Source of the DNA: Fibrobacter sp. UWR3
GTDB lineage: Bacteria > Fibrobacterota > Fibrobacteria > Fibrobacterales > Fibrobacteraceae
Direction of reading: 5' to 3'
Length of the DNA stretch: 64,000 nucleotides
Assembly (NCBI RefSeq): GCF_900143055.1
Contig: NZ_FRCW01000006.1
Location: forward strand, 124,001 to 188,000
The notes under the pieces are model-generated. The model was not told the origin of the DNA, did not search any database, and saw only the letters and a program-made list of their open reading frames with translations. A program made the position numbers and the translations under genes. Of this stretch, positions 6,236 to 27,723 are shown in pieces (position 1 is the first letter of the stretch; each line of letters starts with the position of its first letter).

Positions 6236-6790
6236 ATGAAAAAACCGGAAGTAGACATACTGACCATCAAGCACCGCAACATGTGGGGCGAGTGGACCTT
6301 CAAGTTCGAAGGGAACCTCCTGTGCGGGCTCCGGTTTACCGGCGCAGATGAATCGATTGTGCCAAGCACGGTCAAGGCCTGCGCATACGCAAAACCCGAC
6401 AGCGACGAAGCTCTCCCGCGCGCCACAGCAAGGGTTTACAACAACGTTGTACGCGAACTCAACCAGTACCTTTCGGGCAAACTCAAAAAATTTTCCATCC
6501 CGATTAAGTTGTCCGGCACCAAGTTCCAGATGAACGTCCTCGAAGCCATCATGGATATTCCCTACGGCAAAACGTGGACATACAAGCAGGTTGCCGAAAT
6601 TATCGGGCACCCGAATGCAGTCCGTGCCGTCGGGAATGCGCTCCACAGCAATCCCCTGCAGGTCATAATCCCCTGCCACCGCGTGGTCACGAGCCGCGGG
6701 CAGATTGGCGGTTACGCCCTCGGCACCGATTTGAAAAGGCGCCTCCTGTGTATGGAAGGCGCCATTCAAAACGAACTCGAACTGGAATAA
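6236..6790 (+). CDS. ogt: methylated-DNA--protein-cysteine methyltransferase
   Basis: Repairs O6-alkylguanine by transferring the alkyl group to its own cysteine. The 184-residue protein has the active-site motif IIPCHRVV (Cys about 145) and the downstream GGYALG..LKRRLL segment, preceded by the winged-helix region (PYGKTWTYKQVAEIIGHPNAVRAVG). The start is ATG 6236; a GTG 15 nt upstream is possible. TATATT at 6224-6229 lies 6 nt before the ATG and no Shine-Dalgarno is visible. It is divergent from the FISUMP gene. Ogt versus Ada-C type cannot be settled from sequence alone. Confidence 0.92.
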   Translation: MKKPEVDILTIKHRNMWGEWTFKFEGNLLCGLRFTGADESIVPSTVKACAYAKPDSDEALPRATARVYNNVVRELNQYLSGKLKKFSIPIKLSGTKFQMNVLEAIMDIPYGKTWTYKQVAEIIGHPNAVRAVGNALHSNPLQVIIPCHRVVTSRGQIGGYALGTDLKRRLLCMEGAIQNELELE

Positions 6791-25477: not shown

Positions 25478-25816
25478 CTACTTCTTACGGCGCAGGATGC
25501 CAGCCAACGCCACCGCGATGAGGATACCCGCGGGGAGCACGACGGCGATGGTCAACAGGATGAGCTTTTGGAAGTCGGAGAGACCCTTGATGGATTTCTT
25601 GAAATCCTTGAGTTTGGCTAGCAGGCCGGGCTTGCCGCCCGAGGTGGAGCCGTCGGATTCCTGGCCCAAGTCCTCGGAACCCGCAAAGGCTTCCATCTTC
25701 GGGAGCATCGCGAGCAACTTAGACGCCGATTCCTTAACCGGGCCTACAAAGCCGTCCAGCTTGGAGCGGTACTTTTCGTAGTGTCTCTTGAAAGGGCGCT
25801 TGAGTTGTTCGAGCAT
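25478..25816 (-). CDS. small tail-anchored membrane protein
   Basis: A 112-residue protein. The N-terminal 75 residues are charged and helical (KRPFKRHYEKYRSKLDGFVG..., LAKLKDFKKSIKGLS) and the C-terminus is a single span (LILLTIAVVLPAGILIAVALAGILRRKK). It lies 26 nt upstream of the FISUMP gene on the same strand. AGGAAA about 8 nt before the ATG supports the start. No family recognised. Confidence 0.65.
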   Translation of the reverse strand: MLEQLKRPFKRHYEKYRSKLDGFVGPVKESASKLLAMLPKMEAFAGSEDLGQESDGSTSGGKPGLLAKLKDFKKSIKGLSDFQKLILLTIAVVLPAGILIAVALAGILRRKK

Positions 25817-25916: not shown

Positions 25917-27491
25917 TTAGGCCTTCTTGTAAAGGAGGTTCACGCCGCCGAAGAGGGCGCGCATGTTGGCCTTGAGCGTATCGCTAGAGACGCCGCGGCC
26001 TTCGACCTCGACATCGCCCGCCTTCAGGAGCATGCGGCTAAGCCCGCGGCCAGCCCACAACTTGTCCTTTTCAGGCACCACAAGCTGGCGGTACTTCACG
26101 AGTTCCACCGGCATGCCGATTTCGCGCATGAGCATGAGGGCGGCCTCGATCGGGCCTTCCGCCGTAATGGACCTCACCAGCGGTTCACCATCCTTCTTGA
26201 AGTGGAAAATGAAGCGGTTCTCGTCGGGGATAACCTCGATGTTGTTGAACACCAGGCGGCCGTTCACGTTCACGCGCTGCTCGCGGAACACGTCCAGCAC
26301 GCGCTCGGCGCTGAGTTCGCCTTCCTTTTCGCTGTAGGACTTCAGGATCGGCTGCAGTTCGGCGGCTTCGGCGAGCGTCATCTTGTAGCCGAACTTCGTG
26401 ATAATCTCGTACACGGCGGTGCGGCCGCTCTGGCTCGTGAAGCTCAGGGCGTCGTTCTGGTGGCGGCCGATGATGGAGTAGTCGATGGGGCGGTAGGCCC
26501 CCTTCTTCATGTCCTTCGTCTTGGAGGCGCCATCCTGGTGGATGCCGCTACGGTGCACGATAGCTTCGGCGCCAATCAGCGGGGCGCGGCTGTAAATACT
26601 GATACCCGACCACTGGGAAATCAGGATGGCCGTTTCGTAAATGCGCTCCATGTGCAGGCCCGTATTCACGCCGGAGTTGTGCAGCGCGACCGCAACTTCG
26701 TAGAAATTCGTGTTGCCGCAGCGTTCGCCCAGGCCGTTCAGCGCGACTTCCAGCTGGGTTGCCCCCACGAAGAAGCTTTCGACCGTCGCAGCCGTCGCCA
26801 TGCCCAGGTCGTTGTGGCAGTGCACCGAAATCGTGACGTCCTTCGGGAGCGCCTCGTACACCTGCTTGATCTGGTTCACATACAGGAACGGACGATAACG
26901 TTCCACCGTATTCGGCAGATTGATGGTCGTCGCACCCGCTTCAACCACAGCCTTCAGCACGTCAATCACGAAATCCATGTTTTCGAGACAGTCACCGAAA
27001 TGCTCGGCGCTGAACTCCACATCGCCCTTGTCGCCAACGAGCGACTTTGCAAACTTCACGCAATGAACCGCCTTCTCCTTGACCTGTTCGGGGGTCAGGT
27101 GCAGCACGTGCTCCATCGAGAGCGGGCTTGTCGCAAGGAAGGTATGGATACGCGGGTGCGGCGCAAACTGTACCGCTTCCCAGCAACGCTGGATATCGCT
27201 TTCCACGCAGCGGGCCAGGCCCGAGACAACCACGCGCTTTGCCACCTCGTCGCCTTCTTCGGCCATCTTCGCGGTGAGTTGCGCCAGTTCCTTGCACGAT
27301 TCAAAGTCCATCTCGCTCGAAGCCGGGAAGCCGACTTCGGCCCCCTGCACGCCGAGCTTCAGCAGTTGCAGGTAAACGTCCTTTTTCTGGGCGTTGTTCC
27401 AGGGCTTCGGGAGCGCCTGGTTGCCGTCACGCAGGGTGACATCGTAAAAGAAGGGTTGTCTGTTCGCCATATCGGCACTTACATTGCTCAT
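25917..27491 (-). CDS. leuA: 2-isopropylmalate synthase
   Basis: Condenses acetyl-CoA with 2-oxoisovalerate, the first committed step of leucine synthesis. The 524 residues show FYDVTLRDGNQALPKPW (catalytic DxTLRDG), SVHCHNDLGMATA (HxH metal site), NGLGERCGNTNFYEVA, HRSGIHQDGASK, and a C-terminal LeuA allosteric domain from about residue 390. GGAG 8 nt before ATG. A close homologue such as homocitrate or citramalate synthase is possible, but the leucine-rich leader peptide upstream (27628-27687) argues for leucine synthesis. Confidence 0.93.
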   Translation of the reverse strand: MSNVSADMANRQPFFYDVTLRDGNQALPKPWNNAQKKDVYLQLLKLGVQGAEVGFPASSEMDFESCKELAQLTAKMAEEGDEVAKRVVVSGLARCVESDIQRCWEAVQFAPHPRIHTFLATSPLSMEHVLHLTPEQVKEKAVHCVKFAKSLVGDKGDVEFSAEHFGDCLENMDFVIDVLKAVVEAGATTINLPNTVERYRPFLYVNQIKQVYEALPKDVTISVHCHNDLGMATAATVESFFVGATQLEVALNGLGERCGNTNFYEVAVALHNSGVNTGLHMERIYETAILISQWSGISIYSRAPLIGAEAIVHRSGIHQDGASKTKDMKKGAYRPIDYSIIGRHQNDALSFTSQSGRTAVYEIITKFGYKMTLAEAAELQPILKSYSEKEGELSAERVLDVFREQRVNVNGRLVFNNIEVIPDENRFIFHFKKDGEPLVRSITAEGPIEAALMLMREIGMPVELVKYRQLVVPEKDKLWAGRGLSRMLLKAGDVEVEGRGVSSDTLKANMRALFGGVNLLYKKA

Positions 27492-27561
27492 TTTTCATCT
27501 CCTTGCCGGCTTCCATGCGCCGCAAAGTTCTTTTCCGTGTTCAAAAATAGCATTTTGCCAT

Positions 27562-27595
27562 AAAAAAGAACCCGCTTCGTCACGGAAGCGGGCCC
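27562..27595 (-). terminator. leuA attenuator terminator
   Basis: On the minus strand CCCGCTTC-CGTGAC-GAAGCGGG is followed by TTCTTTTTTA. It lies between the leader peptide stop and the leuA start. Part of its 5' arm (CGCTTCCGTG) can instead pair with CACGGAGCG inside the leader-peptide coding region, the expected antiterminator. Confidence 0.85.
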
Positions 27596-27627
27596 TTTAA
27601 GTTAATTCCTATTTAAAACGAAATAGC

Positions 27628-27687
27628 CTAAAACCTCGCTCCGTGCGCGATACCAAGTAGAAGTCGAAGGTTAAGGATCTTTCTCAT
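27628..27687 (-). CDS. leuL: leuA leader peptide (attenuation)
   Basis: A 19-residue ORF, MRKILNLRLLLGIAHGARF, has Leu at positions 5, 7, 9, 10 and 11 (codons CTT, CTT, CTT, CTA, CTT), the arrangement of an amino-acid-sensing attenuator. Scarce leucyl-tRNA would stall the ribosome on these codons, leaving codons 14-17 (CACGGAGCG) free to pair with the terminator arm and letting transcription reach leuA. The ATG is 7 nt from the -10 box with no Shine-Dalgarno, so the leader mRNA would be leaderless. Confidence 0.8.
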   Translation of the reverse strand: MRKILNLRLLLGIAHGARF

Positions 27688-27694
27688 GCTATAG

Positions 27695-27723
27695 AATATA
27701 CAAAGATTCAGGTGGATTGGCAA
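27695..27723 (-). promoter_or_regulatory. leuA promoter
   Basis: Minus-strand -35 TTGCCA (27718-27723), 17-bp spacer, -10 TATATT (27695-27700). It lies just downstream of the antitoxin-like gene and 7 nt upstream of the leader peptide ATG. Confidence 0.7.

Follow-up and report, generated by a model that had tools for sequence, protein, structure and literature searches.

A probable leucyl-tRNA-sensing transcription attenuator upstream of leuA in Fibrobacter and other families of its class

What is the role of a 19-codon reading frame crowded with leucine codons that lies between a promoter and leuA, the gene for 2-isopropylmalate synthase, in a Fibrobacter genome? The window examined in this study, meaning the whole stretch of 64,000 nucleotides that was analysed, carries the parts concerned on its minus strand in the 5' to 3' order P1, 7 nt, leader ORF, 35 nt, hairpin, T run, 70 nt and leuA. 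The features at the two ends of this arrangement are as follows:

27695-27723, minus strand: promoter P1, consisting of TTGCCA (27723-27718), a 17-nt spacer and TATATT (27700-27695), with 10 of 12 matches to the consensus
27628-27687, minus strand: leader peptide ORF MRKILNLRLLLGIAHGARF, 19 codons and a stop, with no Shine-Dalgarno sequence and probably leaderless, showing synonymous Leu codon changes in relatives
27655-27675, minus strand: putative regulatory Leu codons 5, 7, 9, 10 and 11 (CTT CTT CTT CTA CTT)
25917-27491, minus strand: leuA, 2-isopropylmalate synthase, 524 aa (NF042434, 544.6 bits against a cut-off of 500)

The original prediction had named a TTGCCA-17-TATATT promoter and a 19-codon ORF with five Leu at positions 5, 7, 9, 10 and 11, and both were read from the minus strand as claimed, the promoter at 27723-27695 and the ORF at 27687-27628. 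As is expected of an attenuator, the short ORF is rich in codons for the amino acid that its neighbouring gene helps to make, with five Leu within codons 5-11 and leuA following. A short ORF with at least five Leu in seven codons was found in combination with a terminator 3' of it and a TTG/TA...T promoter a single time in the window, and in none of 40 dinucleotide-shuffled windows.

The pattern of substitution in relatives indicates which property of the ORF is under selection. A set of 20 leaders belonging to one length class retains Leu at codons 5, 7, 9, 10 and 11, with synonymous changes at codon 5 (CTT/TTG/CTG), codon 7 (CTT/CTG) and codon 11 (CTT/TTG), and codon 10 is CTA in all 20. CTA accounts for 37% of leader Leu codons (78 of 211) compared to 2.4% of those in the genes of the window. 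Outside the Leu run the leader peptide drifts; since Leu persists through codon changes and the rest of the peptide varies, the codons, rather than the peptide, are indicated as the signal. An arrest peptide, in which a specific nascent chain and not a shortage of leucyl-tRNA would stall the ribosome, is a highly improbable explanation: the N-L-x-L-L-L core is fairly constant in one clade, but the peptides of the class differ widely (MQVKTGALLLLGLLTELDGGLR, MTFTAPANTLGLLLSLLG and MQNCKSNRLQLSSLLLGRSN) and have only Leu runs in common, and the downstream gene makes leucine. Direct sensing of leucine by the leader RNA as a riboswitch, T-box or protein-binding element has nothing specific in its favour and is hardly credible, given that no Rfam family reached its gathering score (the best scored 24.6 against 44) and that, apart from the ORF and the switch stems, the leader shows little sequence conservation, whereas the reading frame and its Leu codons are kept.

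If the codons are read as a signal, a structure is needed that can respond to the position of the ribosome. Three further features are pertinent here:

27562-27592, minus strand: intrinsic terminator, with stem arms CCCGCTTC (27592-27585) and GAAGCGGG (27578-27571), loop CGTGAC and T run TTCTTTTTT (27570-27562)
27637-27645, minus strand: putative antiterminator 5' arm CACGGAGCG, equal to leader codons 15-17 (nt 43-51)
27581-27590, minus strand: putative antiterminator 3' arm CGCTTCCGTG, common to the terminator 5' arm and loop

The hairpin described beforehand is present at 27592-27571 on the minus strand, with its T run extending to 27562. A mutually exclusive pairing between the leader and the terminator arm had also been proposed, and such a pairing was found, although the leader arm comprises codons 15-17 and not codons 14-17. 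Pairing of 27645-27637 with 27590-27581 leaves one T bulged, and the duplex, predicted at -21 kcal/mol, reaches towards the leader stop codon (27628). The single-sequence duplex is not always beyond shuffles (6/200 in the window and 102/200 in the relative L040). Across lineages, arm and partner change jointly (GGAGCG with CGCTCC, GAAGCG with CGCTTC); in relatives, T-A, C-G, A-T and G-C are all seen at pair 7 of the antiterminator. In a permutation test on 18 combinations, whose rows were aligned by hand with the shared GCG/CGC as anchor, cognate arms paired better than permuted arms (125 versus a mean of 114, P 0.0006), and this was also the case after collapsing to 12 combinations (P 0.0045). 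Duplex energies favoured the cognate arms as well (P 0.019 for the genus and 0.009 for the class), kinship being handled in all of these P values by collapsing duplicates only. The terminator ahead of the structural gene is kept in Fibrobacter and in families f2, f3 and f5, but not in f4; the terminators of the DLRLINLL clade are bulged, and were located by an anchored search.

Folding agrees with covariation in pointing to the mutually exclusive antiterminator that is expected of an attenuator. When window RNA extending up to the terminator loop was folded with nt 1-41 masked, as by a stalled ribosome, the antiterminator formed (-20.0 kcal/mol), while masking of nt 41-70, as by a ribosome at the stop codon, left no antiterminator (-3.8 kcal/mol). 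The full-length RNA folds preferentially as the terminator, even under the stall mask. Because the terminator is the more stable structure once its 3' arm has been made, antitermination must be kinetic, with timing deciding the outcome, as it is in known attenuators. With ribosome footprint sizes taken as standard values, a ribosome stalled in the Leu cluster has its leading edge at approximately nt 41-44, where the arm begins (nt 43), and a ribosome at the leader stop codon spans approximately nt 41-70 and with it the entire arm. Stalling is thus predicted to free the arm, and a terminating ribosome to mask it, in the window and in most relatives; L014, L033 and, in part, the L018 group (with Leu at codon 13) fit this geometry poorly. 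Families f3 and f5 have the arm at the leader stop codon or just 3' of it, where a terminating ribosome would still cover it. The parts of the leuA attenuator, their conservation, their covariation and their geometry can all be read at the sequence level.

There is accordingly little doubt in our assessment that this region attenuates leuA transcription by way of the translating ribosome, sensing charged leucyl-tRNA, and the conserved Leu codons together with the covarying antiterminator support the original prediction of such control in Fibrobacterota. From these elements we infer leaderless initiation, stalling, termination and a response to leucine at the leuA leader. RNA from P1 would begin at most a few bases ahead of the leader ATG, and leader translation would be initiated by ribosomes at the RNA 5' end. 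With leucyl-tRNA plentiful, the ribosome would get to the leader stop, its footprint lying over codons 15-20; the covered arm could not form the antiterminator, the terminator hairpin would fold and RNA polymerase would halt before leuA. With leucyl-tRNA scarce, the ribosome would stall in the Leu cluster at codons 9-11, with the rare CTA at codon 10, and the arm from nt 43 would be free to pair with CGCTTCCGTG once this had been made, so that the terminator would be blocked and leuA transcribed.

The first step of this scheme depends on how the leader is translated. P1 resembles sigma-70 promoters, and its predicted RNA start falls about 0-3 nt from the leader ATG. In the window the ATG lies 7 nt past the -10 box, with similar distances in relatives, which is too close for a Shine-Dalgarno sequence; this spacing accounts for the claimed start without one and means that the leader RNA is probably leaderless. 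At 5 of 46 gene starts in the window, an in-frame ATG close to the start is preceded by a TATNTT motif at a distance of 3-9 nt, versus 1% of all ATGs, which suggests from sequence that leaderless mRNAs are common in Fibrobacter. Whole genes with such TATNTT-ATG spacing include those starting at 6236, 10477 (minus strand), 20458 and 32581 (minus strand).

The distribution of the attenuator was examined at the level of genus, order, class and phylum. A Leu-rich leader ORF (four to six Leu in eight residues) precedes every one of the 36 leuA copies from the genus for which upstream sequence was available, and in all 36 of these copies P1, the Leu-rich ORF and the terminator stay together. Of 63 named loci, a set that overlaps the 36 copies in genomes, the Leu-rich ORF is present in 60 of 60 Fibrobacter records with enough upstream sequence and absent upstream of leuA in the three non-Fibrobacter LeuA relatives. 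The closest LeuA matches come from Fibrobacter succinogenes, Fibrobacter sp. MAGs and F. intestinalis ATCC 43854. Outside the genus, the same plan recurs in L038, from another family of the order, and in all 12 leuA copies read from the class families f3 and f5 (L039-L050). Leaders outside the genus have other sequences and the same order of parts, as in MSKAHAQLLLLGLSG, where GGAGAGTG is set against CCCACTC. In f4, a third family of the class (L181 and L182), the leaders MTQTIQQSLFLLLQLHKG and MTTTIQQSLLLLPSTHKG precede LeuA of another type and are associated with a hairpin that has no T run; this leader may act in another way, through Rho or translation. The phylum families that were looked at beyond these, f6-f10, have LeuA of another type and no such leader. 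The check put forward with the original prediction, that Leu codons and compensatory changes be conserved, was borne out both within Fibrobacter and in further families of its class, and comparison of sequences thus leaves a class-wide leucine attenuator well supported.

Between the terminator and the leuA start codon, two additional elements were identified:

27542-27550, minus strand: conserved CTATTTTTG (also given as CTATNTTTG), candidate second promoter P2, kept in nearly all genus copies
27499-27527, minus strand: leuA ribosome-binding site AAGGAG (27504-27499) and possible hairpin CTTTGC/GGCAAGG (27527-27501)

P2 has no counterpart in the original prediction. Motifs like the P2 sequence sit before leuC, hisG, ilvB, pheA and cimA, and seven were observed in the window compared to 2.4 expected; it is perhaps a general Fibrobacter -10 motif. 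If P2 is a promoter, part of leuA transcription bypasses the attenuator. The conserved promoter-like CTATNTTT between the hairpin and leuA would also suit a different reading, in which the hairpin is a plain terminator of some other RNA, the Leu-rich ORF has arisen by chance and leuA is transcribed only from P2. Such an arrangement has next to no likelihood, however, as the ORF, P1 and the terminator occur together in all Fibrobacter copies and in the class families, Leu is kept despite codon change, and the shuffled windows never yielded the combination. The possible hairpin further downstream would mask part of the leuA ribosome-binding site, and its RNAalifold energy is weak (-3.7 kcal/mol) and without useful covariation; L033 has an inserted complementary pair, GTTCCC/GGGAAG, at this position. 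An apparent TAG within LeuA of several relatives was identified as the natural stop, placed one codon earlier. Just 3' of leuA (25478-25816, minus strand) lies a gene whose 112-aa product belongs to no Pfam or NCBIfam family and has one likely membrane helix; relatives of this protein are present in 76 of the 99 leuA loci examined.

Attenuation of leuA appears not to be the only case of its kind in this genome. A second candidate leader is located outside the window:

L180:5249-5305 (G000:C11, about 21748), same genome: Trp leader MKMNSAIRFNRWWWGSRT ending in a stop (Trp-Trp-Trp), leaderless-looking, before trp genes

The Trp leader is followed by a terminator (AAAGGC-TTTCGGACTCCCGAA-GGCCTTT and T's). 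The CGGACTC of that terminator is a possible partner for GAGTCCGG at the leader stop codon, in a pairing that taken alone is not beyond shuffles (36/500). The layout thus resembles trp attenuators (trpL) in having a terminator along with an antiterminator arm that matches it. Before trpE, other Fibrobacter carry MMNFVTSATMNRRWWRGL or similar sequences (RRWW leaders), ending in a stop. When Fibrobacter genomes were inspected gene by gene, no convincing leader peptide was found before ilvB, hisG, leuC, pheA or leuS, and none was found before hom in relatives, the hom match in the genome itself being incomplete. It is conceivable, although we would lean slightly against it, that leaderless leader-peptide attenuation is an old and general form of amino-acid control in the class to which Fibrobacter belongs, serving leu and trp at least; a start at the RNA 5' end would take the place of the ribosome-binding site and hold polymerase and ribosome in step, and P2 would provide a basal, unattenuated supply of leuA.

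There are several known systems with which the leuA leader may be compared. The enterobacterial leuL-leuABCD system has a Leu-rich leader, a rare Leu codon, mutually exclusive antiterminator and terminator stems, and leuA downstream. The Fibrobacter leader is alike in all of these respects, but it is shorter, is probably leaderless, and has its arm inside the last codons of the leader, and leuC lies elsewhere in the genome, away from leuA. Enterobacterial leader families in Rfam scored below their gathering thresholds (Thr_leader 20.8 of 55, Trp_leader 18.5 of 41), and no leucine leader family is listed; the Fibrobacter leu leader would work like these enterobacterial leaders and is not a member of their sequence families.

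In Actinobacteria, leuA leaders have been published (PMC1262725, PMC3890552), and Streptomyces lividans has a leaderless LeuL1, MRFGLLLLSCRGEGL, before leuA and LeuL2 before leuS (PMC8079986). A Leu-run peptide from leaderless RNA before leuA is common to these LeuL/LEU systems and Fibrobacter. A typical intrinsic terminator is missing from the actinobacterial leuA leader (PMC8079986), and the LEU element is drawn as a pseudoknot that base pairs Leu codons with the leuA Shine-Dalgarno sequence (PMC1262725); in contrast, the Fibrobacter leader has a clear terminator and an antiterminator that joins leader codons to the terminator arm, and in these features does not fit the LEU element. Leader-peptide attenuators of amino acid operons have been inferred in Flavobacterium psychrophilum and reported as strong clues (PMC9723704), which would place such control in Bacteroidota, a phylum other than Proteobacteria and Actinobacteria. 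Leader-peptide attenuation was for a long time described chiefly from the latter two groups; an earlier paper stated that no case had been shown beyond them until its own in Firmicutes, and its main text does not mention Fibrobacter (PMC2965389).

In the literature searched, which was mostly without subscription papers and where absence is not proof, no paper was found that joins Fibrobacter with attenuation and leader peptides; nothing on Fibrobacterota in that literature contradicts the claim that the attenuator had gone undescribed for the phylum. As far as could be seen, the leu attenuator is therefore new for Fibrobacterota, its mechanism being classical ribosome-mediated attenuation. Class-wide leu attenuators in Fibrobacterota, with their covariation and the accompanying Trp case, would widen the range of leader-peptide attenuation, and they would offer, in important fibre-degrading bacteria of the gut, natural variants for the study of attenuation that sets out from a leaderless start.
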